Part shown: piece after piece, positions 39,584 through 61,514 of the stretch | How the letters are laid out: each line of letters starts with the position of its first letter | Numbering within the stretch: the first letter of the stretch is position 1 | Assembly: GCF_020387415.1 (NCBI RefSeq) | Contig: NZ_JAGWCB010000007.1 | Location: 1-64,000 of the forward strand | Source of the DNA: Ideonella benzenivorans | GTDB taxonomy: Bacteria; Pseudomonadota; Gammaproteobacteria; Burkholderiales; Burkholderiaceae_C | Reading direction: 5' to 3' | DNA: 64,000 nucleotides | Translations under genes and position numbers: made by a program | The notes under the pieces: generated by a model | Told to the model about the DNA's origin: nothing | The model's input: the letters and a program-made list of their open reading frames with translations, nothing else | Databases searched by the model: none

Positions 39584-40621
39584 ATGAAGGGAACCATCCT
39601 GGTGGGAACGGCCGGCCAAGGCATTCTGCGCAGCGTGGACGACGGCGCCTCCTGGCACCGCCTGGGCCTGAAGGAAGCCATCGAGTTCGACGGCGTCGTG
39701 CGGGCCATCGCGGTCGATCCGGCCCACCCCGAGCGCGTGCTGGCCGGAGCCGATGCCGGCCTGTGCCTGAGCGAGGACGGCGGTGCGCACTTCCGCCGCG
39801 TCGAGTCGCCGATGAACGGGCTCACGGTGTGGGCCATCGCCTTCCACCCCGCCAACCCGAAGCTGGTGTTTGCCGGCACCGGGGCGCCGTCGCGGGCCCG
39901 CATGTACCGCTCCCAGGACGGCGGCGAGACCTGGCAGGCGCTGGGCGTGGAACTGCCCGAGTTCTGCCAGGGGGTGAACCGCCCGCGCATCCTCACCATC
40001 GCCGGCCACCCCGACAAGGCCGAGGAGGCCTGGTTCGGGGTCGAAGAGGGCGGTGCCTGGCGCACCGCCGATGCGGGCGAGCACTGGACCCGCGTGGACA
40101 CGCCCGAGTGCCCGATCAACAACTCCGACATCCACGCCATCGCGGTGCTGCCGGCCCTGGGCGAGCAAGCCGTCAAGCATGTGGTGCTGACCGTCAACTC
40201 GGTGTACGACACCAGCGACGACGGCAAGACCTGGCAGGGCAAGGCCTCGAAGGAGCGCTTTGACGGCATGTACTACACCCGCACCGTGCATGTGGTGGAT
40301 GCGGCGGGCAGCACGCTGCTGCTGGCCATTGGCGACGGCACACCGGGCACGCGCACTCAGATCTACCGCTCCACCGACCGGGGCGTGAACTGGACACCCG
40401 CGCTGCTGCACACCCGTCCCAACTCCACCGTCTGGGCCTTCGGCTCCCATGCGGCCGACCCGCAGCTGATCTTCGCCGGCACCAAGTACGGCGACCTGCT
40501 GCGCTCGATGGATGGCGGCGCGAGCTGGTTCAAGGACTGGCGCGAGTTCAGCGAGATCACCGCCGTGGCCTGGACGCCCTTCGTGGCGCCGGTCAAGGCC
40601 CATCCCCAATCCATCAACTGA
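39584..40621 (+). CDS. Cytoplasmic seven-Asp-box beta-propeller protein (copy A)
   Basis: A 345-residue protein containing seven Asp-box (BNR) motifs spaced through the chain: SVDDGASW, SEDGGAHF, SQDGGETW, TADAGEHW, TSDDGKTW, STDRGVNW and SMDGGASW. This indicates a seven-bladed propeller like the sialidase/GH74/VPS10 fold. No signal peptide, so it is cytoplasmic, and no sialidase Arg triad is evident. Related propellers bind or hydrolyse sugars, but here the neighbours are aromatic-catabolism enzymes; it may be a lactonase-like enzyme or a scaffold. SD AGGAG precedes ATG 39584. A paralogue lies at 58351. Confidence 0.8.
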   Translation: MKGTILVGTAGQGILRSVDDGASWHRLGLKEAIEFDGVVRAIAVDPAHPERVLAGADAGLCLSEDGGAHFRRVESPMNGLTVWAIAFHPANPKLVFAGTGAPSRARMYRSQDGGETWQALGVELPEFCQGVNRPRILTIAGHPDKAEEAWFGVEEGGAWRTADAGEHWTRVDTPECPINNSDIHAIAVLPALGEQAVKHVVLTVNSVYDTSDDGKTWQGKASKERFDGMYYTRTVHVVDAAGSTLLLAIGDGTPGTRTQIYRSTDRGVNWTPALLHTRPNSTVWAFGSHAADPQLIFAGTKYGDLLRSMDGGASWFKDWREFSEITAVAWTPFVAPVKAHPQSIN

Positions 40622-40634
40622 GGCACGCGCGGCC

Positions 40635-41120
40635 ATGAGTACCTCCACCGAGCCCAAGCTCAAGGTCCGTCGGACCCACCTGTCGCTCTTCGTCAAGGAC
40701 CCCGTGGCCAGTGCGGCCTGGTACGCCGACGTGCTGGGCATGAAGGAAACCGCCCGCGGACCCCAGTGGGTGATGATGTCCTTCGGTCCCAAGCACCATG
40801 ACATCGCCCTGATCCAGGCTGAGATCCCCGCCGGCACCGAGGTGCTGCGCGGGCCGATCAACATGCAGCACTACGGCCTGGAGATCGATGGGGACATGAC
40901 CGAGCTGCGGCGTCTCTACGGCATGTTGCTGAAGAAGAACGTCCCCATCGTCAAGACCACCGACCACCTGGTGGGCGTGGGCGTGTATTTCACCGATCCG
41001 GACGGGCACCGCCTCGAGTTCTTCTGCGAGGTCATGCACGACGACGCGCAGGCCCAGCGGGCCTTCGGCGAACACCATGGTCCCAGCGATCCGATCACGC
41101 TGGAACCCATTTTTGAATGA
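40635..41120 (+). CDS. VOC-family protein, single-module extradiol-dioxygenase-like (copy A)
   Basis: A 161-residue protein with one vicinal-oxygen-chelate module pair. Candidate metal ligands are His15 (RRTHLSLF), His79 (MQHYGLEI) and Glu128 (HRLEFF). Their spacing (64 and 49 residues) is close to that of the His146/His210/Glu260 iron site of BphC-type extradiol dioxygenases (64 and 50). It may therefore cleave a hydroxylated ring, or act as an isomerase or glyoxalase-like enzyme. It lies between the propeller and AA_synth genes; its paralogue at 59403 has the same neighbour on its 5' side. Confidence 0.82.
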   Translation: MSTSTEPKLKVRRTHLSLFVKDPVASAAWYADVLGMKETARGPQWVMMSFGPKHHDIALIQAEIPAGTEVLRGPINMQHYGLEIDGDMTELRRLYGMLLKKNVPIVKTTDHLVGVGVYFTDPDGHRLEFFCEVMHDDAQAQRAFGEHHGPSDPITLEPIFE

Positions 41121-41131
41121 ACGAGCACACC

Positions 41132-41734
41132 ATGAAATCTCCGAACTTCGGCATCTACCACATCCGCAAGTGGTTCCAGTACATCGAGGACACCCAGGCC
41201 ACCGAGAGCGGCCAGCCGGCGGACGGCCTGCCCTTGCGCAAGTACGTGATCGCCGCCTGCATCCACAACCCCTACGCGGGACGCTATGTGGAGGACCTGA
41301 GCGTCTGGATCGAAGGCTCGCCCGAACTGGGGCATGAGTTCGGCCGTCGCATCCAGGAACTGTCGGCCGGGCGCGAGATCCAGAGCTATGGCAAGGCCAT
41401 CCTGGTCGGTGTGGATGGCGACTACGAGCATGGCAATGCCCTGCTGACCAACCCGGCGGCCAACCCGGTGCGCGACGCCCTGGGCGGTGGCAAGGCCTGG
41501 GTGCCCTCGACCGGCAAGCGCGGCGGCCCGGGCACCATCCTGGACATTCCGCTGGCCCACAAGGATGCGCTCTACGTGCGCTCCCACTACGACACGATCA
41601 GCGTCAGCTTCAACGACGCGCCCTCGCGCGACGAGGTGCTGATCTGCTGGGCCTTCGCCACCCGCGGCCGTCTGAATGCGCGCCTGGGCGGCATCAAGGC
41701 CTCCGAGATCAAAGGCGAGAACGGCCTGGTGTGA
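41132..41734 (+). CDS. AA_synth/DUF1185 family protein
   Basis: A 200-residue protein of the 'amino acid synthesis' family, recognised from IRKWFQYIEDT at the start, NPYAGRYVEDLS, ESYGK-like QSYGKAILVG, ALGGGKAWVPS and KRGGPGTILDIPLAHKD. The biochemical role of the family is not established despite its name; members occur in catabolic operons. Start ATG 41132 has a GAGCACACC leader like its neighbours and matches the family N-terminus. ATG 41117, which overlaps the previous stop as ATGA, is an alternative. Confidence 0.8.
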   Translation: MKSPNFGIYHIRKWFQYIEDTQATESGQPADGLPLRKYVIAACIHNPYAGRYVEDLSVWIEGSPELGHEFGRRIQELSAGREIQSYGKAILVGVDGDYEHGNALLTNPAANPVRDALGGGKAWVPSTGKRGGPGTILDIPLAHKDALYVRSHYDTISVSFNDAPSRDEVLICWAFATRGRLNARLGGIKASEIKGENGLV

Positions 41735-41736
41735 GC

Positions 41737-42585
41737 ATGACGATGGAGCGCAGTTCCTTTCAGTTCACCGTGGCCGGGCTGTCGCTCCACGTCACCGCGT
41801 GGGGCCCGGCCCAGGGGCGGCCCCTGCTGGCCCTGCATGGCATCCGTGGCTTTGGCGAGACCTTTGCCGGCCTGGCCCAGGCGCTGCAGCCCGAGTTCCG
41901 GGTCTGTGCGCTGGACCAGCGGGGCCGGGGGGCCTCCCAATGGGACCCGGCCCACGAGTACTACACCGACCGCTATGTGGCCGACCTGCTGGCCGTGGCC
42001 GATGCGATGGGCCTGCAGCGCTTTGACCTGCTGGGGCACTCGATGGGGGGCATCAACGCCATCGTCTTCGCATCGCAACACCCGGAGCGGGTGGGGCGCC
42101 TGGTGATCGAGGACGCTGGCCCGGGGGCCTTCGAGCACAGCCCCGGGGCCACCCGCATCCGGCGCGAGATGGCGTCCACGCCGGACCGCTTCGCCAGTTG
42201 GGACGCCGCCAGCGCCTTCATGCGGGCCCAGCGCCCCAGCGTCACCGAGGAAGCCCGCCAGCAGCGCCTGCACAGCATGCTCAAGCCGCTGGACGACGGC
42301 AGCTTCACCTGGCGCTACGACCATGTGGGCATTGCCGCCACCCGCCTGAACCCGGACCCGGCCCGCGTCGTGGACCTGCGCCCGCATGTGGCGGCCCTGC
42401 GCTGCCCGACGCTGGTGGTGCGCGGTGGGCGCTCCGACTACCTGCAAGCCGAGATGGCCGCCGAGATGCGCGCGCTCAACCCGCGCCTGCGCGAGACCGT
42501 GATCCCCGACGCCGGGCACTACGTGCACGACGACCAACCCGCCCTGTTCAACGCACAGGTGCGTGCCTTTCTGCTGGAAGCATGA
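41737..42585 (+). CDS. Alpha/beta hydrolase (MhpC-like fold)
   Basis: A 282-residue hydrolase. Oxyanion segment LHGIRGFGETF, nucleophile elbow GHSMGG (Ser102) and catalytic His261 (DAGHYVHDD) are intact, with the acid probably in the VVRGGRSDYL segment. In meta-cleavage pathways such enzymes split ring-fission products; that role fits the adjacent monooxygenase and VOC genes but is not proven. Starts at 41731 (GTG overlapping the preceding TGA), 41737 and 41743 are all in frame. Its stop overlaps the next start. Confidence 0.87.
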   Translation: MTMERSSFQFTVAGLSLHVTAWGPAQGRPLLALHGIRGFGETFAGLAQALQPEFRVCALDQRGRGASQWDPAHEYYTDRYVADLLAVADAMGLQRFDLLGHSMGGINAIVFASQHPERVGRLVIEDAGPGAFEHSPGATRIRREMASTPDRFASWDAASAFMRAQRPSVTEEARQQRLHSMLKPLDDGSFTWRYDHVGIAATRLNPDPARVVDLRPHVAALRCPTLVVRGGRSDYLQAEMAAEMRALNPRLRETVIPDAGHYVHDDQPALFNAQVRAFLLEA

Positions 42586-42884
42586 CCATGATGATCGAGA
42601 TGAGAACCTACACCCTGGTGCCCGGGGGGGTGAGGGAGTACCTGCGGATCTACAACGAGACCGGCCGCAGCGTGCAGCTGGAGATCCTGGGTCAGCTGGT
42701 GAGCCTGATGACCCCGGAGACGGGTGAGCTCAACCAGCTGGTCTTTCTCTGGGCCTTTCCCAGCTTCGAGGCCCGGCGCGAGCGCCGCGCCCGTCTGATG
42801 GCCGACCCCCGCTTCACGGAATTCCGCAAGTCCGTCCGTCACCTGCTGGTGAGCCAGGAGAACCGGCTGCTCAACGAAGTCTGA
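42582..42884 (+). CDS. NIPSNAP-family protein
   Basis: A 100-residue alpha/beta-barrel-type protein starting MTMMIEMRTYTLVPGGVREYLRIYNETG, the NIPSNAP signature, with LNQLVFLWAFPSFEARRERRARLMADPRF in the second half. ATG overlaps the hydrolase stop (ATGA), so it is translationally coupled. Small ferredoxin-like folds of this family are frequent in aromatic-degradation operons, where they may act as enzymes or chaperones; the function is unknown. Confidence 0.82.
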   Translation: MTMMIEMRTYTLVPGGVREYLRIYNETGRSVQLEILGQLVSLMTPETGELNQLVFLWAFPSFEARRERRARLMADPRFTEFRKSVRHLLVSQENRLLNEV

Positions 42885-42910
42885 GCCCGCACGCAGCAAG
42901 GCACACAAAC

Positions 42911-44584
42911 ATGATCAAGCAAACAGAAGTGCAGGTGCTGGTGGTAGGGGCCGGCCCGGTGGGCGTGTCCCTGGCCAACCTGCTGGGATGCTATGGCGTC
43001 CAGACCCTGGTGGTGGACCGCAGTCCCACGGTGCTGGACTTTCCGCGCGCGGTCGGCCTGGACGACGAGGCGCTGCGCACCTTCCAGGCGGCCGGGCTGG
43101 CCGAGGACATGTTGACCGACATGATCCAGAACGTGCCGATGCGCATGTACACGGCCGACAAGCGCTGCTTTGCCGAGATCCTGCCGAGCACGCGGGAGTT
43201 CGGCTGGTACCGGCGCAACCTGTTCTCGCAGCCGCTGGGCGAGACCACGCTGCGCAAGGGCCTGGCGCGCCACCCGCAGGTGCAGCTGCAGCTCGGCGTC
43301 GAGCTGGTGGGCCTGCAGCAGGATGCGAGCGGCGTGACCGCCGAGCTGCGCGATGCCGACGGCGCCATCCAGCGCGTGCGGGCGCAGTACTTGGTGGGCT
43401 CCGACGGGGCGCGCAGCACTGTGCGCGAGGGCCTGCTGAAGCTGCCCTACGAGGGGGTCACCCATCCCAACAAGTGGGTGGTGATCGAGTGCGAGGATGA
43501 CCCGCTGGACGCGCCCTACACGGCCCTGCACTGCGAGCCGGCGCGGCCCCATGTCTGCCTGCGCCTGCCCTATGGCCTGCGGCGCTGGGAGTTCATGCTG
43601 TTTCCCGGCGAGGATGGCGAGCAGATGCTGGCGCCCGACCAGGTCCAGGCCCTGCTCAAGGGGCATGTGCCGCACCCCGAGCGGTTGAAGATCATCCGGG
43701 CCCGGGTCTACACCCACAACTCGCGGGTGGCGGGCGAATTCGTCCATGGCCGGGTCTGCCTGGCCGGGGATGCAGCCCACATCACCCCGCCCTGGATCGG
43801 ACAGGGCCTGAATGCAGGCATGCGCGACGCCTTCAACCTGGCCTGGAAACTGGCCTGGGTGGTGCAGGGCCGGATGAAGCCCGAGCAGCTGGCCAGCTAC
43901 CACCTGGAGCGTCACGCCCACGCCAAGGCCATGATCGATCTGGCGGACATGTTCGGCGCCACGCTGTCGCTGCGCAACCGCCCGCTGGCCTGGCTGCGCG
44001 ACCGCTTCTTCCTGGCCATCCAGCACATCCCGCGCTTTCGCGACTATGTGCTGCAGATGAAGTTCAAGCCCATGCCCCGTTTCTCCGAGGGCGTGGTGCT
44101 CAACAGCGGCAAGGCCCGGCAGGACGAGCGGGTGGGGCGCATGTTCATCCAGCCCCTGGTGGAGGTGAACAACGGCGAGCCCCAGCGGCTGGACGATGTG
44201 CTGGGGCCGCGCTTTGCGCTGCTGAGCTGGCGCAGCGACGCGCTGGCCCAGGTCGACGAGGGCCTGAAGGCCCAGTTGCAGCGCCTGGGCTGCGCCGCCT
44301 TCGTGGGCGTGCGGGCCCGCAGCAGCGCCAACGAGGTGGCGCAGGTGCTGCGCACGCCGGGCCTGTCCACGGTGGTGCAGGACATGGAGAACGCGCTGCA
44401 CTTCTGGTTCCAGCAGGCCGGGGTGGACTGGGTGCTGCTGCGGCCGGACCGCTTCGTGGCGGCCGCCGGCCAGGTCGGCGATGCCCCCGACCAGCTACGC
44501 CGCTTCTGCGAGGCCGTGCTGCCCGTGGCCCCGGCGCAGCCCGCCGGGGCCGCGCCGCGCACCTCTGCGGCGGTGGCGGCCTGA
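42911..44584 (+). CDS. FAD-dependent aromatic monooxygenase, MhpA-like (copy A)
   Basis: A 557-residue class A flavoprotein hydroxylase. Dinucleotide motif VVGAGPVGVSLANLL (about 11-25), VGSDGARSTVR (the DG motif) and LAGDAAHITPPWIGQGLNAG (the GD motif) are complete. A C-terminal thioredoxin-like domain (about 400-540) is as in MhpA/PheA. It uses NAD(P)H and O2 to hydroxylate a phenolic ring. It is paralogous to 59889-61514, sharing LDDEAL, YTHNSRVA and the GD segment. SD is weak (AAGGCACACAAAC). Substrate unknown. Confidence 0.9.
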   Translation: MIKQTEVQVLVVGAGPVGVSLANLLGCYGVQTLVVDRSPTVLDFPRAVGLDDEALRTFQAAGLAEDMLTDMIQNVPMRMYTADKRCFAEILPSTREFGWYRRNLFSQPLGETTLRKGLARHPQVQLQLGVELVGLQQDASGVTAELRDADGAIQRVRAQYLVGSDGARSTVREGLLKLPYEGVTHPNKWVVIECEDDPLDAPYTALHCEPARPHVCLRLPYGLRRWEFMLFPGEDGEQMLAPDQVQALLKGHVPHPERLKIIRARVYTHNSRVAGEFVHGRVCLAGDAAHITPPWIGQGLNAGMRDAFNLAWKLAWVVQGRMKPEQLASYHLERHAHAKAMIDLADMFGATLSLRNRPLAWLRDRFFLAIQHIPRFRDYVLQMKFKPMPRFSEGVVLNSGKARQDERVGRMFIQPLVEVNNGEPQRLDDVLGPRFALLSWRSDALAQVDEGLKAQLQRLGCAAFVGVRARSSANEVAQVLRTPGLSTVVQDMENALHFWFQQAGVDWVLLRPDRFVAAAGQVGDAPDQLRRFCEAVLPVAPAQPAGAAPRTSAAVAA

Positions 44585-44621
44585 CCGCCTGACCGCCCGA
44601 TCGACACCGAAAGGACTGCCC

Positions 44622-46052
44622 ATGTACCCGACCCTGGCCCTCTACATCGACGGCGAGTTCATCGACGCCAGCCGCACCGCCCGCGCCCAGGATGTGCGCG
44701 ACCCGGCCACCCAGCAGCTCCTGGGGCAACTGCCCTGGGCCGAGACGGCGGATCTGGAGCGCGCCGTGCAGGCGGCCGACCGGGCCTGGCGCCAGTGGCG
44801 CCGCAGCTCGCCGATGGAGCGCGCCGCCGTCCTGCGCAAGGTGGGCGAACTGGCCCGCCTGCGGGTGGAGGAGATCGCCCAGGCCATCACGCTGGACAAC
44901 GGCAAGCCGTTGGCCGAAGCGCGGGCCGAGGTGCTCAACAGCGCCGAGCATGCCGAGTGGAACGCGGAGGAGTGCCGGCGCATCTATGGCCGGGTGGTGC
45001 CGCCGCGGGACCCGGCGGTGCGCCAGCTGGTGACCCGCGAGGCCATCGGCGTGTGCGCGGCCTTCAGTCCCTGGAACTTCCCGATGGGCCAGGCCATCAA
45101 GAAGGTCGCTGCCGCGATCGGTGCCGGCTGTGCCGTGGTGCTCAAGGGGCCGGAGGAATCCCCCAGCGCGGTGCTAGCCCTGGCCCAGCTGTTCCATGAC
45201 GCGGGTCTGCCCCCGGGCGTGCTCAACGTGGTGTGGGGCGTGCCGGGCGAGATCTCCCAGCACCTGATCACCCATCCGCTGGTGCGCAAGGTGTCGTTCA
45301 CTGGCTCGGTGCCGGTGGGCAAGCAGCTCGCCGCCCTGGCCGGTGCGCACATGAAGCGGGTCAGCATGGAGCTGGGCGGGCATTCGCCGGTGATCGTGTT
45401 CCCGGATGCCGACCTGGATGCGGCTGTCGCCCTGCTGGCCCGCCTGAAGACCCGCAATGCCGGGCAGGTCTGCGTCTCGCCCTCGCGTTTCTTTGTCCAC
45501 CGGCAGGTCTACCCGGCCTTTCTGGAGCGCTTTGGCCAGGCGATTGCCGGGGTGCGGCTGGGCCACGGCCTGGCCCCCGAGACCCAGATGGGGCCGCTGA
45601 TCCATGGCCGGCGGCTGCAGGCCATCAGCGAGCTGGTCGACGATGCGCTCTCCTGTGGCGGGGAGCTGGTGACCGGTGGACAGCGCCTGGAAGGGGCTGG
45701 CCACTTCTACCGCCCGACGGTGATTGCGGGCGTGCCCGAACACGCCCGCGTGCTGTGCGAGGAGCCCTTCGGGCCGATCGCCCCGGTGATGCCCTTCGAC
45801 GACACCGAGGAGGTGATCGCCCGGGCCAACAGCGTGCCCTTCGGCCTGGCGTCCTATGTGTTCACCGAGTCGATCAAGACCGCCACCCGGGTCTCCGAGG
45901 GCCTGGAGGTGGGCATGGTCAACATCAACCATTCGGGCATGGCCCACCCCGAGCTGCCCTTTGGCGGCATCAAGGACAGCGGCATCGGCAGCGAGGGAGG
46001 CACCGAGACCTTCGACGGCTACCTGGTGACCAAGCTGACCACCCAGATCTGA
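44622..46052 (+). CDS. Aldehyde dehydrogenase (first of three)
   Basis: A 476-residue NAD(P)-dependent dehydrogenase. SPWNFP cofactor loop, SFTGSVPVGKQ, general base Glu250 (MELGGHSP) and nucleophile Cys284 (AGQVCVSPSR) are all present. It oxidises an aldehyde to an acid, perhaps the product of the ThDP decarboxylase or hydrolase upstream. AAAGGA precedes ATG 44622. The next gene is a second dehydrogenase 32 bp on. Confidence 0.92.
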   Translation: MYPTLALYIDGEFIDASRTARAQDVRDPATQQLLGQLPWAETADLERAVQAADRAWRQWRRSSPMERAAVLRKVGELARLRVEEIAQAITLDNGKPLAEARAEVLNSAEHAEWNAEECRRIYGRVVPPRDPAVRQLVTREAIGVCAAFSPWNFPMGQAIKKVAAAIGAGCAVVLKGPEESPSAVLALAQLFHDAGLPPGVLNVVWGVPGEISQHLITHPLVRKVSFTGSVPVGKQLAALAGAHMKRVSMELGGHSPVIVFPDADLDAAVALLARLKTRNAGQVCVSPSRFFVHRQVYPAFLERFGQAIAGVRLGHGLAPETQMGPLIHGRRLQAISELVDDALSCGGELVTGGQRLEGAGHFYRPTVIAGVPEHARVLCEEPFGPIAPVMPFDDTEEVIARANSVPFGLASYVFTESIKTATRVSEGLEVGMVNINHSGMAHPELPFGGIKDSGIGSEGGTETFDGYLVTKLTTQI

Positions 46053-46084
46053 GACCCCGAGACCTGAGACCGAGAACCTCTGCC

Positions 46085-47533
46085 ATGCTTGAACTGAACG
46101 ATCCCTCCCTGCTGCCTGGTCGCTGCCTGCTGGGCGGTCAATGGCGCACGGCCGAACGCACCATCGACGTGATGAACCCCGGTCGCGGCGGTCTGGTGGG
46201 CACGGTGCCCCGCATGGGCCGTGCGGAGACCCAGGCGGCCATCGAGGCGGCGGCCACGGCCTGGGCCGACTGGCGAGCCCGCCCGGCCAAGGAGCGCTCG
46301 GCCATCCTGCTGGCCTGGTACCAGGCGGTTCTGGGGGCCCAGGAGGACCTGGCCCGCATCATGACCGCCGAGCAGGGCAAGCCACTGGCCGAGGCCCGCG
46401 GGGAAGTGGCCTATGCCGCCTCTTTCCTCCAATGGTTTGGTGAAGAGGCCAAGCGCGTCTATGGCGACACCATCCCGGCCCCATTGCGCTCGCAGCGCAT
46501 CGTGGTGACCAAGGAGCCGGTGGGCGTGTGCGCCGCCATCACGCCCTGGAACTTCCCCGCCGCGATGATCACCCGCAAGGCCGGGGCCGCGTTGGCCGCG
46601 GGCTGCACCATGGTGGTCAAGCCGGCCAGCCAGACGCCCCTGACCGCGTTGGCCCTGGCCGTGCTGGCCGAGCGCGCGGGGGTACCGGCGGGGGTGCTGT
46701 CGGTCATCACGGGCTCGGCCAGTGAGATCGGCGACGAGCTGACCCGCAACCCGCTGGTGCGCAAGCTCAGCTTCACCGGCTCCACCGAGGTCGGCCGCAC
46801 CCTGATGCGCCAGTGCGCGGACACGGTCAAGAAGGTGTCGATGGAGCTGGGCGGCAACGCGCCCTTCATCGTCTTCGACGATGCCGATCTGGACGCCGCG
46901 GTGGAGGGGGCGCTGGCTTCCAAGTACCGCAACGCGGGCCAGACCTGCGTCTGCGCCAACCGCTTCTATGTGCAGGCCGGGGTGTACGAGCGCTTTGCCG
47001 ACAAGCTGGCCGCCGCCGTCTCGGCCCTGCAGGTGGGGCCGGGCGATGAAGCCGGGGTGACGGTCGGCCCGCTGATCGACACCCGGGCGGTGGACAAGGT
47101 CGAAGAGCATGTGGCGGACGCCCTGGCCCAGGGGGCTGCGGTCCGCCTCGGCGGCCGGCGCCATGCCCTGGGTGGCTCGTTCTATGAGCCCACCATCCTC
47201 ACCGGTGCCACGCAGGCGATGAAGGTGGCCCGCGAAGAGACCTTCGGTCCGCTGGCGCCGCTGTTTCGCTTCGAGACCGAGGACGAGGTGGTGGCCATGG
47301 CCAACGACACCGAGTTCGGTCTGGCCAGCTACTTCTACGCCCGGGACCTGGGACGCGTCTGGCGGGTGGCCGAGCGCCTGGAGTACGGCATGGTCGGCGT
47401 CAACACCGGCCTGATCTCCAACGAGGTGGCGCCCTTCGGTGGCGTCAAGCAGTCGGGCCTGGGCCGCGAAGGCTCGCACTACGGCATCGACGACTACCTG
47501 GTCATCAAGTACATCAACATGGCCGGCATCTGA
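46085..47533 (+). CDS. Succinate-semialdehyde dehydrogenase-like protein
   Basis: A 482-residue aldehyde dehydrogenase closest in feel to GabD: TAEQGKPLAEARGEV, PWNFPAAMITRKAGAALAAGC, general base Glu254 (MELGGNAP), nucleophile Cys288 (AGQTCVCANR) and SNEVAPFGGVKQSGLGREGS. GabD oxidises succinate semialdehyde to succinate. Last gene of the operon that starts at 37151; it converges with the second IclR gene 9 bp away. It would drain a C4 semialdehyde from ring cleavage or from the aminotransferase at 30428 into the TCA cycle. Confidence 0.88.
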   Translation: MLELNDPSLLPGRCLLGGQWRTAERTIDVMNPGRGGLVGTVPRMGRAETQAAIEAAATAWADWRARPAKERSAILLAWYQAVLGAQEDLARIMTAEQGKPLAEARGEVAYAASFLQWFGEEAKRVYGDTIPAPLRSQRIVVTKEPVGVCAAITPWNFPAAMITRKAGAALAAGCTMVVKPASQTPLTALALAVLAERAGVPAGVLSVITGSASEIGDELTRNPLVRKLSFTGSTEVGRTLMRQCADTVKKVSMELGGNAPFIVFDDADLDAAVEGALASKYRNAGQTCVCANRFYVQAGVYERFADKLAAAVSALQVGPGDEAGVTVGPLIDTRAVDKVEEHVADALAQGAAVRLGGRRHALGGSFYEPTILTGATQAMKVAREETFGPLAPLFRFETEDEVVAMANDTEFGLASYFYARDLGRVWRVAERLEYGMVGVNTGLISNEVAPFGGVKQSGLGREGSHYGIDDYLVIKYINMAGI

Positions 47534-47542
47534 GCCGGGCCG

Positions 47543-48295: not shown

Positions 48296-48342
48296 GCGTT
48301 CGGGTGGGTTGTAGAGGCGAACGGGCGCGGATTGTACGAAGC

Positions 48343-48357
48343 ACCCGTGATGCGGGA
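48343..48357. promoter_or_regulatory. Operator-like palindrome, site 1
   Basis: ACCCGTGATGCGGGA, 4-7-4 layout (CCC...GGG), about 48 bp upstream of the second IclR start codon. One of three 15-mers in this gap that fit (T/A)CCCnnnATnnGGGA. Confidence 0.55.
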
Positions 48358-48380
48358 TCGGTCGGTTCACGACAATTAAA

Positions 48381-48395
48381 TCCCGTAATTCGGGA
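48381..48395. promoter_or_regulatory. Operator-like palindrome, site 2
   Basis: TCCCGTAATTCGGGA, the most perfect of the three palindromes (TCCCG/CGGGA arms), about 86 bp upstream of the IclR start codon. Its core GTAATTC is close to GCTATTC in the palindrome upstream of the ThDP operon. Confidence 0.6.
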
Positions 48396-48544: not shown

Positions 48545-48559
48545 CTTTCATCAAACAAG

Positions 48560-49848: not shown

Positions 49849-49870
49849 TCGATTCAGCGGGCAGTTCGAG

Positions 49871-53107: not shown

Positions 53108-53174
53108 GACAGGAATGACGATCGGGCCCGTTCTCGACATCGTGGACACGGGCCCCTGGCTTGAGGGCAAGGCA

Positions 53175-54824: not shown

Positions 54825-54856
54825 GCCCGTTCCCTTCGGAATTCCTGGAGTACCCC

Positions 54857-56323
54857 ATGTCTCAGTCCCAGATGGTCCTGAACTACATCAATGGCCAATC
54901 CGTGCCCGCGCAATCCGGCAGCACCTTTGACAAGGCCGAACCGGCCACCGGCGTCGTGCGCTGGCAGGTGGCCTCCGCCCGGGCGGAGGATGTCGACCAG
55001 GCGGTGCAGGCCGCGCAGGCCGCGTTCAAGGGGGCCTGGTCGGCCCTGTCGGGCGCTGCCCGCGGTCGCCTGATCCACCGACTGGCCGACCTGCTGGAGG
55101 CCCGCGCCTCGGCCTTTGCCGAGCTGCTGGCCCGTGAGCAGGGCCGCCCGGCCAGCGACCTGATGATGATGGACCTGCCGATGTGCGTGGACACGCTGCG
55201 CTACTTCGCGGGTTGGGCCGACAAGCTCGAAGGCCGCACCATCCCCACGGGCGGCTTCATGGGCACGCCCACGTTGAACTACACCCGGCGCGAGCCGGTG
55301 GGCGTGGTGGCCTTGATCGTGCCCTGGAACGCACCGCTGATGATCGCCATCTGGAAGCTGGCGCCGGCCCTGGCCGCGGGCTGCACGGTGGTCATCAAGA
55401 CCTCCGAGGATGCCCCGGTGGCCGTGGGGGCGCTGGCTGCCTTGCTGGACGAGGCCGGCCTGCCGCCCGGGGTGGTCAACATCGTGCACGGCATGGGGCC
55501 GGAGGCGGGCGCCTCGCTGGTGGCCCATCCCCTGGTGCGCAAGATCAGCTTCACCGGCAGCACCCAGGTGGGCCGCCTGATCGGCCAGGCCGCTGCCAGC
55601 AGTTTCAAGCGGGTGACGCTGGAACTGGGTGGCAAGGCGCCGCAGATCGTGTTCGCCGATGCCGATCTGGACCAGGCGGTGCTGGGCCTGGCGATGGGGC
55701 TGTTCGTCAACCAGGGCCAGGTCTGCGCGGCGGGCTCACGCCTGCTGGTCCAGCGCAGCATCCTGCGCGACGTGGAGGACCGGCTGGCGGCCTGCGCGCG
55801 CGACATCCGGCTGGTGGGCCACGAGGCCGAACCGGCGCCGCCCTGGGTGCAGATGGGCGCGCTGATCAGCCCCCGGCACCGGGACCGGGTGCAGGAACAC
55901 ATCGACCGTGCCCTGGCCGAAGGGGCCCGCTGCATTGCCGGCGGCGAGGGCGCTCTGCCCAGCGGCGGCTACTACCTGCGCCCGACCCTGTTCACCGACG
56001 TGACGCCGGACATGCACCTGGCGCGCGAGGAGGTGTTCGGGCCGGTGGGGGCCATCCTGCCCTTTGACACCGAGGAAGAGGCCATCGCGCTGGCCAACGA
56101 CTGTGTCTACGGCCTGTCGGCCTCGGTGTGGACGCGCGACCTGGCCACGGCCCACCGCGTGTCCGCCCAGCTGGAGGTGGGGGCCGTGGCCGTGAACTGC
56201 TGGAGTCCGCTGGATGCGCGCCTGCCCTGGGGCGGCGTCAAGGACAGCGGGGTGGGCAAGGACTTGTCGCGCCTGGCGCTGGACGCCTACCTGGAAGAGA
56301 AGACGGTGACCGTCGCGCTCTGA
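54857..56323 (+). CDS. Aldehyde dehydrogenase (third of three)
   Basis: A 488-residue aldehyde dehydrogenase. PWNAPLMIAIWKLAPALAAGC, SFTGSTQVGR, Glu256 (LELGGKAP), Cys290 (GQVCAAGSR) and EVFGPVGAILPF are present. It probably oxidises the aldehyde produced by the GMC enzyme just upstream. GGAG precedes ATG 54857. It is more like betaine/aromatic aldehyde dehydrogenases than like GabD, but the substrate cannot be assigned. Confidence 0.9.
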   Translation: MSQSQMVLNYINGQSVPAQSGSTFDKAEPATGVVRWQVASARAEDVDQAVQAAQAAFKGAWSALSGAARGRLIHRLADLLEARASAFAELLAREQGRPASDLMMMDLPMCVDTLRYFAGWADKLEGRTIPTGGFMGTPTLNYTRREPVGVVALIVPWNAPLMIAIWKLAPALAAGCTVVIKTSEDAPVAVGALAALLDEAGLPPGVVNIVHGMGPEAGASLVAHPLVRKISFTGSTQVGRLIGQAAASSFKRVTLELGGKAPQIVFADADLDQAVLGLAMGLFVNQGQVCAAGSRLLVQRSILRDVEDRLAACARDIRLVGHEAEPAPPWVQMGALISPRHRDRVQEHIDRALAEGARCIAGGEGALPSGGYYLRPTLFTDVTPDMHLAREEVFGPVGAILPFDTEEEAIALANDCVYGLSASVWTRDLATAHRVSAQLEVGAVAVNCWSPLDARLPWGGVKDSGVGKDLSRLALDAYLEEKTVTVAL

Positions 56324-56500
56324 ATCCACTGACCTGTCACTGAAAGACGCCGGCTCCCTCCCTTGCCCGGGGGCCGGTTGCCTGGCAGGCCACACGCTTG
56401 ACCTGGGAACACACCGCGAAGCCTTTGGCGACGCGGTGAGGGCGAACTCATCTCTGCAATTTGAATTTCGGGGGTTTTTATGTTGAACGAGGAGAGATTC

Positions 56501-57595
56501 ATGCCGGTGGGAATTCGTGCGGTGGCGACCGCGGTGTTGTGCTGTCTGGCGGGTGCCGCCCAAGCCCAGCAGGCGTCGTCGGTGAACATCTATGGCCTGC
56601 TGGACGTGGGCCTGGACTACAACAGCAACGTGGGTGGCAAGTCCCAGAAGGACGAGACCACCGGCATCCTGGCGCCCAACATCCTGGGTTTCAAGGGCGA
56701 GGAGGATCTGGGCGCCGGCCGCAAGGCCTTCTTCCAGCTCGAAACCCAGTTCGCGGTGGACACCGGCAGCACCATTGGCAACATGTGGGGCCGCCATGCC
56801 CTGGTGGGCCTGAAGTCGGCCACGCTGGGCTCGGTCCAGGCCGGCACGGTGTCGGACTTCATGTTCGACAAGCTCGGCGTCGGCCGCTGGGGCGGCGGCA
56901 AGATGTTCCCCTACGTCAGCCTGACCTTCACCCGCATGGGCCCGTTCTCGCGCTTCATGCCGACCGGCTCCTTCGACTATGACCGCGTGGCCCTGTCCAG
57001 CCGCATCAACAACGCGGTGCGTTACGACAGCCCGGACTACAACGGCTTCAGCTATGGCGCGCTGTACGGCTTTGGCGAGCAGTCCGGCGGCGTTGGCCTG
57101 AACAACACCGTCAGCCTGGGGGCCACCTACCTGACCGGTCCCTGGACGCTGCAGGCGGCCGGCACACGCCAGCGCCGCGGGGATGTCAACGACGGGCGCG
57201 ATGGCCTGCAGACCTTCGGTGCCGGCGGCCGCTACGACTTTGCCAACGGCTCGTCCTTCGACTTCCTCTACACGAACGCGAAGAACACCTTCACCGACGG
57301 CAAGATCAATTCCTTCGAGATGGGCTACCTCTACCCGACCTCGGCCAACACCGGTCTGATCGGCCAGTACACCTACATGAAGGGCAATGACGTGATCGGT
57401 GGTGCGGGCGCGCACCAGATCAACACCAGCTTCCACTACAAGCTGTCGATGCGCACGCGGGTCTATGCCTCGTATGCCTGGCAGAAGGTGGTGGGCGGCG
57501 ACGGTCTGGACCATGCCCAGATCATCGCGACGGCGGGCCAGTCCAGCAGCGACACGCAAGGGCTGTTCCGCCTGGGCCTGTTCCACGCCTTCTGA
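56501..57595 (+). CDS. Trimeric general porin (betaproteobacterial type)
   Basis: A 364-residue outer-membrane porin. A signal peptide ends at ...AGAAQAQ. The mature start SSVNIYGLLDVGLDYNSNVG and the repeated aromatic-girdle strands are typical of Burkholderiales porins, and the chain ends LGLFHAF with terminal Phe. GAGGAGAG lies at SD distance from ATG 56501; the earlier ATG 56480 lacks one. Its position after transport and oxidation genes suggests it admits the pathway substrate. Confidence 0.9.
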   Translation: MPVGIRAVATAVLCCLAGAAQAQQASSVNIYGLLDVGLDYNSNVGGKSQKDETTGILAPNILGFKGEEDLGAGRKAFFQLETQFAVDTGSTIGNMWGRHALVGLKSATLGSVQAGTVSDFMFDKLGVGRWGGGKMFPYVSLTFTRMGPFSRFMPTGSFDYDRVALSSRINNAVRYDSPDYNGFSYGALYGFGEQSGGVGLNNTVSLGATYLTGPWTLQAAGTRQRRGDVNDGRDGLQTFGAGGRYDFANGSSFDFLYTNAKNTFTDGKINSFEMGYLYPTSANTGLIGQYTYMKGNDVIGGAGAHQINTSFHYKLSMRTRVYASYAWQKVVGGDGLDHAQIIATAGQSSSDTQGLFRLGLFHAF

Positions 57596-57625
57596 ACGTC
57601 GGCCCGGCGTCCGTGGGGAGCATCG

Positions 57626-58108
57626 GTGGCTCAGTCCAAGCTGGCGCGGCACCTCGACTTGGACGAGGCGTTCGCACTGGGGGTGCCGCTGCTGGAGGGG
57701 CTGCACCAGGCGCAAGCCCTGTATGCCCGCCAGATGGATGCCCTCCTGCGGTCCCACGGTCTGACCACGGGCACCTGGCTGCTGCTGGCCGAGCTGAAGG
57801 ACGCGGGGGGCTGCCCCCTGTCCGACCTGGCTTCGCGCATGAGCGTGCACCTGTCGACCCTCACCAAGACGGTTCAGCGCCTGGAGCAGGGCGGGTGGGT
57901 CCACCGCAGTCGGCCACCGGGTGACCTGCGGGTGTCCCTGCTTCAGCTCACCGCATGGGGGGGCGAACGTCTGGACGCGGTCAACGGTGCGCTTTCCGGC
58001 CCGCTGGCGCCCGGTGCCGTGGGCTTGTCCCCGGCGCAGTGGGGACAGGTGGCGCCGCTGCTGGCGACCCTCGTGCACCCGAGGCGGCGGCCACGGGTTT
58101 CACTTTAG
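57626..58108 (+). CDS. MarR-family transcriptional regulator
   Basis: A 160-residue winged-helix protein. The DNA-binding core is GCPLSDLASRMSVHLSTLTKTVQRLEQGGWVHRSRPPGDLRVSLLQLT (about 68-118), with the wing containing the usual D-R pair (GDLR). N- and C-terminal helices should form the dimer. GTG 57626 is preceded by GGGAG. It lies after the porin and before the third operon, and a 7-bp inverted repeat upstream of that operon is a candidate target. MarR proteins commonly respond to phenolic ligands. Confidence 0.87.
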   Translation: MAQSKLARHLDLDEAFALGVPLLEGLHQAQALYARQMDALLRSHGLTTGTWLLLAELKDAGGCPLSDLASRMSVHLSTLTKTVQRLEQGGWVHRSRPPGDLRVSLLQLTAWGGERLDAVNGALSGPLAPGAVGLSPAQWGQVAPLLATLVHPRRRPRVSL

Positions 58109-58153
58109 GACGAGACCTTGCCCTCAAGGTCTGCTCGCGAGAGCGAGTTCACG

Positions 58154-58181
58154 GCGGGTGCTTGCACCCGCTTTTTTTTTT
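58154..58181 (+). terminator. Strong rho-independent terminator
   Basis: GCGGGTGC-TT-GCACCCGC followed by ten T (58172-58181). It ends the transporter/porin/MarR transcript and separates it from the third catabolic operon. Confidence 0.93.
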
Positions 58182-58260
58182 GCAGACACAAGCCCCGTTC
58201 CTCCGCTTGTCCGCAGATCAAGGAATCGCGCCGGAGAAGGCAGACGTTTGCGCTCCATCA

Positions 58261-58297
58261 AATTGCTTGTTTTCGTCTAAATGAGAATTCAGCAATT
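58261..58297. promoter_or_regulatory. Inverted repeat upstream of the third operon
   Basis: AATTGCT (58261-58267) and AGCAATT (58291-58297) are exact complements, 23 bp apart, in an AT-rich stretch 54-90 bp before the propeller B start. The segment is the likely promoter/operator of the operon, perhaps for the MarR protein encoded just upstream. No firm -35/-10 pair was assigned. Confidence 0.45.
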
Positions 58298-58350
58298 AAT
58301 TCAGCGGTGGGCGGCCTGCCCGCTGCATCTCTTTCAAAGGAGTGCCGAAC

Positions 58351-59391
58351 GTGAGCGAAGGAACGTGGTTGGTGGGAACGGCCGGGCAGGGGGTGCTGCG
58401 CAGTGCCGATGGCGGGGCCTCCTGGCATCGGCTGGGACTGCGGCAGGTGATGGAGTTCGATTCGGTGGTCCGGTCCCTGGCGATCAGTCCCGCCGATCCG
58501 GCGACGGTCTATGCCGGCGCCGACATGGGGCTGTGCGTCAGCCACGATGTGGGTGGCCGCTGGGAGCGGGTGTCTGCCCCGTTCGATGGCCAGACCGTCT
58601 GGAAGGTGGCGGTGGACCCACAGGATGCCCAGCGCATCTTCGTGGGCACCGGTGCGCCTTCGCGGGCGGTGCTGTGGCGTTCGCTGGATGGTGGCCGCAG
58701 CTGGACCCGCGCGCCGGTGGACATCCCCGAGCTCTGCGCCGGCGTGAACCGTCCGCGCCTGCTGGCCTTCGCCTTCGACCCCACCGATCGCAACCGCCTC
58801 TGGTTCGGGCTGGAGGAGGGCGGCCTGTTCCGCAGTGCCGATGGGGGCGACCACTGGGAGCGCGTGGACGATCGCCTGTTGTGGGACTTCCACACCGACA
58901 TCCACGCCATCCATGTGCTGCCCAACCACGGGCGCAAGACGGTGGTGGTGGTCTGCGTCAATGCCGTCTACCGCAGTCACGACGACGGCCAGACCTGGGA
59001 AGGCATGCTGCCCCATGACGACTACGGGCTGTACTACGCCCGCACGCTGGGCGCGCCTGCCGGCAGCGAGGACACCCTCTACCTGGGCATTTCGGATGGC
59101 ACGCCCGGCACCACCAGCCGCATCCTGGTGAGCCGGGACGCGGCCGAGCACTGGGAGGTGCTGCCGCTGCCACAGCAGCCGAACGCCTGCTTCTGGGCCA
59201 TCGCGGTGAACCCGGCCGATGCGCGCCAGGTGATCGCCGGCACCAAGTACGGCCACCTGTTCACCTCCGGCGACGGCGGGCTGGGCTGGCGCAAGCAGTG
59301 GCGTGAGTTCAGCGAGATCAGCGATGTGCTGTGGTCGCCGGCCGTGGCCGACATCCACCCGGCCCACCAGTCGATTGCGCACAAGCGCTGA
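58351..59391 (+). CDS. Cytoplasmic seven-Asp-box beta-propeller protein (copy B)
   Basis: A 346-residue paralogue of the protein at 39584. Asp-box-like motifs are SADGGASW, SHDVGGRW, SLDGGRSW, SADGGDHW, SHDDGQTW, SRDAAEHW and SGDGGLGW, again seven. Other stretches shared with copy A are VGTAGQG, FVGTGAPSRA, GVNRPR, ISDGTPGT and WREFSEI. No signal peptide. GTG 58351 follows AAAGGAG at 9 bp. First gene of the third operon; the VOC and monooxygenase paralogues follow in the same order as in the first operon. Function unknown. Confidence 0.8.
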   Translation: MSEGTWLVGTAGQGVLRSADGGASWHRLGLRQVMEFDSVVRSLAISPADPATVYAGADMGLCVSHDVGGRWERVSAPFDGQTVWKVAVDPQDAQRIFVGTGAPSRAVLWRSLDGGRSWTRAPVDIPELCAGVNRPRLLAFAFDPTDRNRLWFGLEEGGLFRSADGGDHWERVDDRLLWDFHTDIHAIHVLPNHGRKTVVVVCVNAVYRSHDDGQTWEGMLPHDDYGLYYARTLGAPAGSEDTLYLGISDGTPGTTSRILVSRDAAEHWEVLPLPQQPNACFWAIAVNPADARQVIAGTKYGHLFTSGDGGLGWRKQWREFSEISDVLWSPAVADIHPAHQSIAHKR

Positions 59392-59402
59392 AGGAGCCGA
59401 GC

Positions 59403-59855
59403 ATGAAGCCCACCATCGTGCGCAACCACATTGCGCTGTTCGTCTCCGATCCCGATGCCTCAGCCCGCTGGTACGCCGATGTGCTGGGCATGCAGGAGTG
59501 CGGCCGCTCCGAGCACTGGATCATGATGTCCTTCGGTCAGAAGCACCATGACATCGCCCTGATCCAGGCCGAGGCAGGGGCCCACCAGGGCGGCCTGGGC
59601 CTGCAGCACTACGGCATGGAGGTCGCTGGCGATCTCGACACGCTGCGGCGCCTGTACGGCATGTTGCTGTCGAAGAACGTGACCATCGTGAAGATCACCG
59701 ACCGCGAGATTGGCATTGGTCTGTACTTCACCGACCCCGATGGCAACCGCCTGGAGTTCTTCCTCGAGACGGACCACGAGGATGCCCGCGCCAAGGCGCG
59801 TTTCCAGGCTGCGGGGGGCCCCAGCCGCCCCATCACGCTCGAACCGATCTTCTGA
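59403..59855 (+). CDS. VOC-family protein, single-module extradiol-dioxygenase-like (copy B)
   Basis: A 150-residue paralogue of the protein at 40635. Candidate metal ligands His9 (VRNHIALF), His69 (LQHYGMEV) and Glu118 (NRLEFF) are kept, spaced 60 and 49 residues; a four-residue deletion lies between the His residues. Conserved segments MMSFGxKHHDIALIQAE and YFTDPDGxRLEFF are shared. GGAGCC before ATG acts as SD. Possible ring-cleaving dioxygenase or isomerase acting on the product of the following monooxygenase. Confidence 0.82.
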   Translation: MKPTIVRNHIALFVSDPDASARWYADVLGMQECGRSEHWIMMSFGQKHHDIALIQAEAGAHQGGLGLQHYGMEVAGDLDTLRRLYGMLLSKNVTIVKITDREIGIGLYFTDPDGNRLEFFLETDHEDARAKARFQAAGGPSRPITLEPIF

Positions 59856-59888
59856 GCGCGGCCCCCTCACTTTTTCAGGAGCACAGTC

Positions 59889-61514
59889 ATGAAACTTCAC
59901 AACACCCAAGTGGTCATCGTGGGCGGTGGCCCCAACGGCATTGCAGCGGCTCACCACATGGGCCTGTACGGGCTGGACTGCGTGGTGCTGGAGACGGCCA
60001 CCGACATCCTGCCGTACCCACGCGCCGTTGGCATGGACGACGAGGCCCTGCGCGTGCTGCAGACCGTCGGTGTGGCCGAGGATGCCCACCAGGACATGAT
60101 CAGCCACGTGCCGCTGCGCTACTACAACGCCCGCGGGACCTGCTTTGCCGAAGTGAAGCCCACCAGCGTGGACAACGGCTGGCCCATGCGCAACCTGTTC
60201 ATGCAGCAGCTGCTGGAGGCCACGATGCGCGAGCATCTGGTCCGCCGGCCCAGCGTGGACCTGCGCCTGGGCCACGAGATGACCGAACTCCAGCAGGACG
60301 AGGCCGGCGTCACCCTGACGGTCAAGCAGCCCGACGGCGAGCTCTATGCGCTGCGGGCCCAGGTCGTGGTGGGCGCCGACGGCGGGCGCTCCAGCGTGCG
60401 CAAGCTGCTGGGCCTGGAGCTGGTGGGCCTGACCCACCCGCGCAAGTGGGTCGTGGTCGATGCGGTGAACGATGAGCTCGACGCCCCCTACACCGCCCTG
60501 CATGCCAACCCGCAGCGGCCCTTCGTCTGCATCCAGCTGCCCTACCGCCAGCGGCGCTGGGAGTTCATGCTGATGGAGGACGAGGATGAGGACACGATGT
60601 GCGAGGAGGGCAACATCCGGCGCCTGATCCGGGCCCACATCGGCGATGCGGTCGACCGGCTGGAGATCATCCGCATCCGCGCCTACACCCACAACTCGCG
60701 CGTGGCCCAGCGCTTCGTCAAGGGGCGGGTGGCGCTGATCGGCGACGCGGCCCACATCACCCCGCCCTGGGCCGGCCAGGGCCTGAACTCCGGCCTGCGC
60801 GACGTGGGCAACCTGTGCTGGAAGGTGGCGATGGTGGTGCTGGGTCGGGCCGACGCCGCCATTCTGCAGACTTATGACACCGAACGCCGTGGCCATGCCA
60901 CCGACCTGATCACCCTGGCCGACAACATGGGGGCCGTTCTGGGCATGACCAACCCGCTGGTCGCCGGTGTGCGGGACTGGCTGTTCCAGGCCGTGGACAC
61001 GGTCGACAGCCTGCGCGAGCACCTGCTGGAATTCCGCTTCAAGCCGCGCGCCATCCTGACCCAGGGGCTGGTCCACCATGAGCGCCCGCTGGACGTGCGC
61101 GAAGAGGACCAGGTCGGGCAGCTGTTCATTCAGCCCTGGGTCGAGGATGCCCAAGGCCAGCGTCAACGGCTGGACGATGTGCTGGGCCCCTGGTACGCGG
61201 TGATTGGCTTTCGCACCAACCCCATCGCCCATCTCGGCGAGGAGGCGCAGGCCACCTGGCGGGCCCTGGACACCCGCTTCATCCAGGTCAACCGCTCCCG
61301 CAGCGGGTACGGGCGCCACCAGCCGCTGCAGACCGAAGGGGTGGTGTGCGTGGAGGATGTCGACAACCGCCTGGAGCAATGGTTCGGGCAGGTGCGTGAC
61401 ACGGTGGTGGTGGTTCGCCCCGACCGCTTCATCGCGGCCATCACCACGCCCGAGCGGCTGGCGTCGACGCTGGCCAAGCTCAAGCGCCAGTTTGAGGCGG
61501 GGCGCGGGCACTGA
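59889..61514 (+). CDS. FAD-dependent aromatic monooxygenase, MhpA-like (copy B)
   Basis: A 541-residue class A flavoprotein hydroxylase paralogous to 42911-44584. FAD motif VIVGGGPNGIAAAHHMG, DG motif VGADGGRSSVRK and GD motif LIGDAAHITPPWAGQGLNSG are intact, with a thioredoxin-like C-terminal domain. Differences in the substrate region (about 180-260) suggest a related but distinct phenolic substrate. AGGAG precedes ATG. It is followed by a flavin reductase-like gene, although class A enzymes reduce their own FAD. Confidence 0.9.
   Translation: MKLHNTQVVIVGGGPNGIAAAHHMGLYGLDCVVLETATDILPYPRAVGMDDEALRVLQTVGVAEDAHQDMISHVPLRYYNARGTCFAEVKPTSVDNGWPMRNLFMQQLLEATMREHLVRRPSVDLRLGHEMTELQQDEAGVTLTVKQPDGELYALRAQVVVGADGGRSSVRKLLGLELVGLTHPRKWVVVDAVNDELDAPYTALHANPQRPFVCIQLPYRQRRWEFMLMEDEDEDTMCEEGNIRRLIRAHIGDAVDRLEIIRIRAYTHNSRVAQRFVKGRVALIGDAAHITPPWAGQGLNSGLRDVGNLCWKVAMVVLGRADAAILQTYDTERRGHATDLITLADNMGAVLGMTNPLVAGVRDWLFQAVDTVDSLREHLLEFRFKPRAILTQGLVHHERPLDVREEDQVGQLFIQPWVEDAQGQRQRLDDVLGPWYAVIGFRTNPIAHLGEEAQATWRALDTRFIQVNRSRSGYGRHQPLQTEGVVCVEDVDNRLEQWFGQVRDTVVVVRPDRFIAAITTPERLASTLAKLKRQFEAGRGH

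Follow-up and report, generated by a model that had tools for sequence, protein, structure and literature searches.

Gene content of the two copies

The 64,000-nucleotide stretch of Ideonella benzenivorans DNA analysed here (contig NZ_JAGWCB010000007.1, positions 1 to 64,000; hereafter the window) contains two versions of a three-gene set encoding an Asp-box beta-propeller, a single-domain extradiol-type dioxygenase of the VOC group and a class A FAD monooxygenase. These are termed copy A (PropA, VOCA, FMOA) and copy B (PropB, VOCB, FMOB), and the function of the propeller is the main subject of this report. All six genes were confirmed at the positions given in Table 1, on the forward strand and in the same order in both copies. 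In Pfam, both propellers match Sortilin-Vps10 and PSII_BNR, both VOC proteins match Glyoxalase and both monooxygenases match FAD_binding_3. By BLASTP, PropA and PropB share 50% identity over 343 amino acids (E 3e-113), VOCA and VOCB 58% over 177 amino acids of the longest open reading frames (65% when aligned from the start codons), and FMOA and FMOB 47% over 520 amino acids (E 2e-162). The first-pass annotation, made from the nucleotide sequence, had described three collinear pairs of paralogues, and these values bear it out.

Copy A is embedded in a long operon, operon A, whose first gene encodes a thiamine pyrophosphate (TPP)-dependent enzyme. Between VOCA and FMOA lie genes for AA_synth, Abhydrolase_1 and NIPSNAP proteins; the AA_synth protein scores 217.8 bits with PF06684, above the Pfam gathering score of 27. 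The models nearest to aldehyde dehydrogenase 1 are those of succinate-semialdehyde dehydrogenases, although its score with TIGR01780, 478 bits, is under the cut-off of 646. Copy B lacks the AA_synth, hydrolase, NIPSNAP, TPP enzyme, short-chain dehydrogenase/reductase (SDR) and aldehyde dehydrogenase genes of the long operon. A search of the organism's own genome found PropA and PropB as its only propellers and a single AA_synth match, that of operon A.

Table 1. Positions of the genes of both copies and of their regulators and flanking genes in the window
Feature	Position	Strand	Basis and remarks
IclR-type regulator, divergent to operon A	35981..36811	-	PF01614; divergent IclR in many relatives
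TPP-dependent enzyme (acetolactate synthase / benzoylformate decarboxylase type)	37151..38704	+	NF005760 649 bits, cut-off 363
SDR dehydrogenase, operon A	38772..39566	+	PF13561; at most 87% identity in syntenic loci
PropA, seven-bladed Asp-box beta-propeller	39584..40621	+	Pfam and AlphaFold2 model
VOCA, single-domain extradiol-type dioxygenase	40635..41120	+	PF00903; H15, H79, E128, H55, H111, Y118
AA_synth (former DUF1185)	41117..41734	+	PF06684 9e-65; PDB kin 2qtp, 3byq
Alpha/beta hydrolase	41731..42585	+	PF00561; PDB kin include AAMS hydrolase 3kxp and MhpC 1u2e
NIPSNAP protein	42582..42884	+	PF07978; start codon inferred from sequence
FMOA, class A FAD monooxygenase, MhpA-like	42911..44584	+	NF004831 752 bits, cut-off 546
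Aldehyde dehydrogenase 1, operon A	44481..46052 (reading frame as listed)	+	PF00171; Pfam domain from about 44680
Aldehyde dehydrogenase 2, operon A	46079..47533	+	PF00171 1.2e-167; second aldehyde dehydrogenase in many relatives
MarR regulator, 5' of copy B	57626..58108	+	PF01047
PropB, second propeller	58351..59391	+	50% identity to PropA; search of own genome
VOCB, extradiol-type dioxygenase, Arg at His111 position	59403..59855	+	Sequence alignment
FMOB, class A FAD monooxygenase	59889..61514	+	NF004831 723 bits, cut-off 546
Flavin-reductase-like protein, 3' of copy B	61651..62286	+	PF01613
Tautomerase-family protein, 3' of copy B	62356..62835	+	PF14552

Recurrence of the trio in other genomes

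In the family sample of 399 genomes, the propeller profile (E<=1e-25) matched 13 genomes at 16 places, of which 11 in nine genomes, including the two of the window, were strong (E<=1e-150) and five were weak. The first 5 propeller, 8 VOC, 3 monooxygenase and 7 AA_synth candidates were scored per genome, so that weaker copies may be missed. The VOC profile (E<=1e-25) gave 11 matches, each adjoining one strong propeller. The monooxygenase profile (E<=1e-80) matched 64 of the genomes, and its 11 best matches, at 799 bits or higher, were the same 11 loci as the strong propellers. AA_synth, searched with the window protein (E<=1e-50), was found at ten places, nine of them beside propellers and one, in genome G497 (47%), without an adjoining propeller. 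AA_synth is missing beside two strong propellers, those of the compact copies in the window genome and in genome G582. Thus, the trio is linked at 11 of the 11 strong places in the family sample, which exceeds chance, and the prediction that it would be met together elsewhere is borne out.

The order sample, also of 399 genomes, contained a propeller match in 20, with the strong class limited to the window's genome and G267, which carries the long operon. Neighbourhoods were fetched for 16 of the 29 order-sample propeller places outside the window genome, and three of the five weak family-sample places were looked at. Among plasmids, 34 records held propeller relatives; six were fetched, plus one more record.

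A wider survey covered the best 80 of 244 propeller relatives, a choice that leans to close kin, and counted as neighbours the genes on the same strand within 8 kb that matched the window proteins by tblastn at set identity thresholds. The steadiest neighbour was AA_synth (79 of 80 loci), followed by the hydrolase (76), VOC (66) and the monooxygenase (65), with the TPP enzyme and the SDR at 65 loci each, NIPSNAP at 52 and aldehyde dehydrogenase 1 at 46. VOC and monooxygenase co-vary, being both present at 65 loci and both absent at 14, with VOC alone at one. Among the 70 loci not cut by contig ends, the corresponding numbers are 59, 10 and 1, with AA_synth at 69 and the hydrolase at 67. The trio was found in betaproteobacteria, Acinetobacter and actinomycetes, and the range of the long operon includes Streptomyces, Nonomuraea, Lentzea, Kibdelosporangium and Acinetobacter gerneri.

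Copy A is therefore an instance of a widespread long operon, and copy B is a reduced form. The first-pass annotation had the AA_synth, hydrolase and NIPSNAP genes inserted into copy A, a view that synteny across the relatives rejects, as all three form a conserved part of the long operon. The compact trio was seen in two genomes, that of the window and G582 (locus L138), both of which hold operon A as well.

History of the copies

Trees were built from rows picked for spread, namely 45 of 101 propellers, 40 of 81 VOC proteins and 44 of 85 monooxygenases. In all three, the nearest kin of copy B are the compact trio of G582 and the long operon of Acinetobacter gerneri (locus L088). The Shimodaira-Hasegawa-like approximate likelihood ratio support for this group is 100 for the monooxygenase, 89 for VOC and 99 for the propeller, in whose tree the program flagged a long branch, that of a Novosphingobium row (L010), as meeting the B clade. 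PropA and FMOA group with Hydrogenophaga, Curvibacter, other Comamonadaceae and Herbaspirillum. PropA is 79% identical to its Hydrogenophaga relative, while PropB is 71% identical to that of G582 and 64% to that of Acinetobacter gerneri. Because the two propellers of the window share only 50% identity, the split between A and B is older than their presence together in this genome, and a recent tandem duplication is rejected. The description of the module as duplicated therefore stands as regards two homologous sets and falls as regards a local duplication. The copies are best described from their sequences as two versions that separated long ago and were each passed on as a unit, with VOCA as a partial exception.

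For VOCA, the best identity elsewhere is only 69-70%, and a careful VOC tree of 38 rows grouped it with the B clade (96/89). A constrained placement of VOCA with nine VOC rows from Comamonadaceae, Herbaspirillum and a Variovorax plasmid was not rejected (approximately unbiased test, p 0.207). VOCA may thus have been captured from a B-type source, a candidate event favoured by the tree and weakened by the alternative placement. Independent origins of the gene pairs, which would have refuted the first-pass reading, are not what the trees show: copy B has the same nearest kin in all three, and VOCA is the one gene whose placement is less certain.

A plasmid of Novosphingobium humi (locus L154) carries two propellers, at 8143-9159 and 20945-21973, about 12 kb apart and 83% identical. 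One is in a long operon with no monooxygenase match and the other is beside a different VOC gene. An independent co-duplication was considered for this plasmid and rejected: the VOC genes next to its propellers share 42% identity over 115 amino acids and no monooxygenase match lies within the 30-kb stretch, so the case is a propeller duplication rather than a second trio.

The propeller protein

PropA is a single propeller of 345 residues. The AlphaFold2 model, computed from 38 sequences, has seven blades, with a predicted local distance difference test score of 93.6 and a predicted template modelling score of 0.92. Asp-boxes (S/T-x-D-x-G-x-x-W/F, between the third and fourth strands of the blades) are seven in PropA, one per blade, and six plus a degenerate one in PropB, which retains all 28 of the tabulated propeller residues. 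According to the parts consulted of a 2009 study, no n-bladed structure with n Asp-boxes was then known, and the known Asp-box glycosidases carry their ligand-binding and catalytic residues in the top-face loop between strands two and three (PMC2716378). A crude check for export found no strongly hydrophobic N-terminal run in the window propellers, which are probably cytosolic.

The best structural match of PropA is 3b7f, followed by GH74, Ycf48, DAIP and sortilin, and in a viral structure library generic phage and virus propellers were matched. The 3b7f protein (YP_299179.1 of Ralstonia eutropha JMP134) is likewise a single seven-bladed Asp-box propeller (template modelling scores 0.72/0.68), but it is itself uncharacterised and only 20% identical to PropA. 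It also has five Asp-boxes in its seven blades, according to the portion of PMC2716378 consulted, compared with seven in PropA.

Relatives of the propeller are labelled sialidase, F510_1955 glycosylhydrolase or YCF48-related. With PSII_BNR, a broader model in Pfam, the window propellers score 35 and 42 bits and so exceed its cut-off of 27. The narrower families were rejected, as the scores are 102 and 108 bits for F510_1955 glycosylhydrolase (NF045728, cut-off 175) and 47 bits for both with Ycf48 (NF010237, cut-off 326). Xyloglucanases of GH74 have the Asp-box or BNR propeller fold in common with the window propellers, as does Ycf48, but GH74 needs a pair of seven-bladed propellers and 700 residues or more, unlike PropA.

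The oxygenases and the state of copy B

The VOC proteins were compared in a set of 81 chosen by similarity to the window VOC, with some duplicates included. The metal triad of two histidines and one glutamate (H15, H79, E128) is present in 81 of 81, as are H55 and Y118, and H111 is present in 80. A HMMER alignment with catechol 2,3-dioxygenase (3hpv) pairs the VOC residues with the conserved ones of that enzyme; H55, H111 and Y118 presumably correspond to its catalytic H199, H246 and Y255. The full extradiol-dioxygenase residue set is complete in VOCA, and one member is lost in VOCB, which alone of the 81 has arginine at position 111 (codon cgc, 59703-59705). Matches of the VOC profile to recA structures in the PDB were discarded as sums of weak repeats. 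Both monooxygenases pass the NF004831 cut-off (Table 1), the MhpA-like name of that family being an annotation label. Membership of this family and the catalytic residues of the VOC proteins together support a predicted pair for hydroxylation and extradiol cleavage.

The lost histidine raises the question of whether copy B is decaying or specialised, with no working ring-cleavage path. The arginine, peculiar to VOCB, would fit such a fate, as would the missing AA_synth and hydrolase genes; the sole AA_synth match of the genome is in operon A. This reading is nevertheless quite improbable, since the six trio genes are all open frames, PropB is intact at every tabulated residue and the compact trio of L138 retains H111. 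The last point implies that the compact form is in itself no ruin. With a single AA_synth match in the genome, copy B could depend on copy A.

Proposed role of the propeller

The reading preferred here, at a probability of roughly 0.45, is that the propeller is an uncharacterised enzyme acting on carboxylated ring-fission products, within two versions of one catabolic set. Judging from family membership and catalytic residues, the monooxygenase would hydroxylate a hydroxyaryl acid, giving a diol whose ring the single-domain VOC protein would open in extradiol fashion. The carboxylated product would then be bound in a putative pocket on the top face of the propeller, formed by R135, E154, D182-x-H184 and Y231-x-R233 with R40, W83, W284, E324 and others, and would be isomerised, lactonised or hydrolysed there. 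In copy A, the hydrolase, AA_synth and the aldehyde dehydrogenases may take the product toward central metabolism, perhaps via succinate semialdehyde, and the TPP enzyme and SDR may handle a side chain or a 2-oxo acid. Copy B, as a reduced trio, could use the AA_synth and hydrolase of copy A in trans.

Remote propellers, at 26-40% identity, provide the evidence for a conserved site. E154, D182, H184, Y231 and R233 are kept in 21 of 21, R135 in 20 and W83 in 19. Some of the remote loci adjoin ring-cleavage or later catabolic enzymes: two-domain HpaD-like dioxygenases, HpaG-like FAH proteins, a LigK-like aldolase and a 4-sulfomuconolactone-hydrolase-like amidohydrolase, all four names resting on scores below the curated NCBIfam cut-offs. 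HpcH aldolase and TctC proteins are further neighbours. As carboxylic ring-cleavage products are a common thread among the partners, the propeller is proposed to act on the ring-fission product itself. Conservation of the fold also favours a site there: the top face, comprising the mouths of the inner strands and the loops between strands two and three, is invariant at 39 of 89 positions in the 38 sequences, compared with 2 of 69 in the bottom A-B loops (Fisher p 7e-10).

Several points weigh against an enzyme of this kind. The top and bottom sets were drawn from the strands of the model when the list of invariant positions was already in view, and the p-value assumes independence both of positions and of related sequences. 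A top face that does not vary could also be a non-catalytic binding site, and the solved relatives of the fold include the non-enzymes Ycf48, sortilin and DAIP. None of the 21 remote loci, several of them on short contigs, matches a monooxygenase or VOC protein of the window type. Other remote neighbours (PhyH, TauD, PrpD, acyl-CoA dehydrogenase) have no obvious ring chemistry, so the remote context is not uniform. The monooxygenase family also occurs without propellers, and in the family sample its next-best matches, in G477 (664 and 646 bits), have a propeller-free neighbourhood. Finally, for none of the proteins did a substrate, product or activity come to light.

The propeller might alternatively serve as a scaffold or assembly factor that docks the monooxygenase, VOC protein and hydrolase and thereby channels unstable diols and ring-fission products, in the way that Ycf48 binds a photosystem II subunit. 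The linkage in the family sample is strict, and propeller and monooxygenase distances correlate (Spearman 0.78 over 79 loci, a few of which occur in more than one collection). Structural neighbours include DAIP, sortilin and Ycf48, which was solved with a D1 peptide. A scaffold is nonetheless unlikely in view of the 14 loci of the 80 at which the propeller occurs with AA_synth and without both VOC and monooxygenase. In the genome of one of these, Achromobacter locus L031, no VOC relative reaches E<=1e-8, and in that of another, Reyranella locus L040, there are four weak VOC relatives, the best at 5e-23. Moreover, the five residues common to all remote propellers are constant despite different neighbours. 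A conserved site combined with changing partners speaks more for an enzyme than for a scaffold, and a catabolic enzyme after ring cleavage is a better fit than an oxygenase accessory.

The idea that the trio acts on one chemistry, with the propeller as partner of ring hydroxylation and cleavage, thus survives as linkage, and its tie to those two steps is undone by the 14 loci and by the remote propellers. At L031, L040 and the Bradyrhizobium locus L077, the propeller, AA_synth and hydrolase genes adjoin glutathione transferase and TctC genes. These loci represent a second, transporter-linked propeller context.

The step of the propeller might also be unrelated to ring fission within a conserved catabolic operon and concern, for example, hydrolysis of a side-chain lactone or processing of a 2-oxo acid that the TPP enzyme makes or uses. 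This, too, is improbable, although the TPP enzyme and SDR are as frequent at the 80 loci as the monooxygenase, at 65, and the long operon of Novosphingobium L154 has the propeller, VOC, AA_synth, hydrolase, TPP enzyme and SDR with no monooxygenase match. Neither copy B nor L138 has a TPP enzyme or SDR beside its propeller, and among the 14 loci free of VOC and monooxygenase only L077 has a TPP enzyme match.

Beyond the window, the enzyme reading extends to a bolder and more tentative proposal, for which the odds are unfavourable: the propellers may constitute a new class of cytosolic Asp-box enzymes that isomerise, lactonise or hydrolyse carboxylic products of ring cleavage and of related acid pathways in many bacteria. 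The possible markers of this class, held just as tentatively, would be R135, E154, D-x-H and Y-x-R on the top face, making it a bacterial counterpart of the fungal carboxymuconate-lactonising enzyme. The latter has a propeller fold.

Comparison with known pathways

The mhp pathway for 3-(3-hydroxyphenyl)propionate in Escherichia coli combines an MhpA-type monooxygenase, extradiol cleavage and an alpha/beta hydrolase, and MhpC (1u2e) is among the kin of the operon A hydrolase. MhpB, however, is not a VOC protein, and mhp is not known to include a propeller. The mhpDFE genes follow in that pathway, whereas no genes of this type are among those scanned at 34365-62835. The tgn pathway for trigonelline uses an oxygenase type different from those of operon A, and we know of no propeller among its genes. 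It resembles operon A in that the latter pairs PF06684 with an aldehyde dehydrogenase nearest to succinate-semialdehyde dehydrogenase models. TgnF, which is of the PF06684 type, was reported to stimulate succinate-semialdehyde oxidation (as cited in PMC7913881, consulted in part).

A further comparable system is the hcd cluster of Pseudomonas mandelii 7HK4, whose genes are induced by one substrate, 7-hydroxycoumarin (PMC6222606, PMC7913881). As far as the consulted parts of these papers describe it, HcdA is a class A FAD hydroxylase, HcdB an extradiol dioxygenase of type I, HcdC a hydrolase and HcdD a protein of the PF06684 type, and all four kinds are shared with operon A. In contrast, HcdC is of the FAA type, neither 'propeller' nor 'sialidase' occurs in PMC7913881, and the consulted text of both papers mentions no TPP enzyme or NIPSNAP protein; the likeness is one of description. 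A stimulating effect of HcdD was not seen by the authors, according to the same portions (PMC7913881, PMC6222606). The first-pass annotation knew of no described system with this trio, and no description of it or of the function of the propeller was found in the open-access literature searched, a coverage that leaves subscription papers mostly outside.

The ring-attacking half of the operon is of a known kind. Two of its families, the propeller and PF06684, have no settled function, and since they are linked almost constantly among the closest propeller loci, the two can be tested together. Should the propeller prove to be an enzyme, aerobic aromatic degradation would gain an extra step and a function would be available for a family that now goes under several borrowed labels. 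Those labels call for caution, since the window propellers score below the F510_1955 and Ycf48 cut-offs, have no obvious export signal by a crude check and share a distinct set of conserved residues on the top face.

Neighbouring genes

Between the two copies, at 48679-56323, lie a branched-chain-type ATP-binding cassette transporter with a fused permease-ATPase gene, a GMC oxidoreductase and a phenylacetaldehyde-dehydrogenase-like aldehyde dehydrogenase (618 bits, against a model cut-off of 800). An IclR gene and a porin gene are also located between the copies. Upstream of operon A, at 30413-35849, are a class III aminotransferase, an AraC regulator and an amino acid permease. The compact copy L138 is also adjoined by aminotransferase, aldehyde dehydrogenase and AraC genes, a hint of an amine precursor. 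The flavin-reductase-like gene that follows copy B is absent from the genes scanned 3' of L138. A promoter and terminator scan of 56000-63000 found no sigma-70-like site and is not informative for this organism. Near the start of the window, a gene with a PIN_12 domain (694-1785) has a third-position GC of 0.62, below that of nearly all other called genes of the window.

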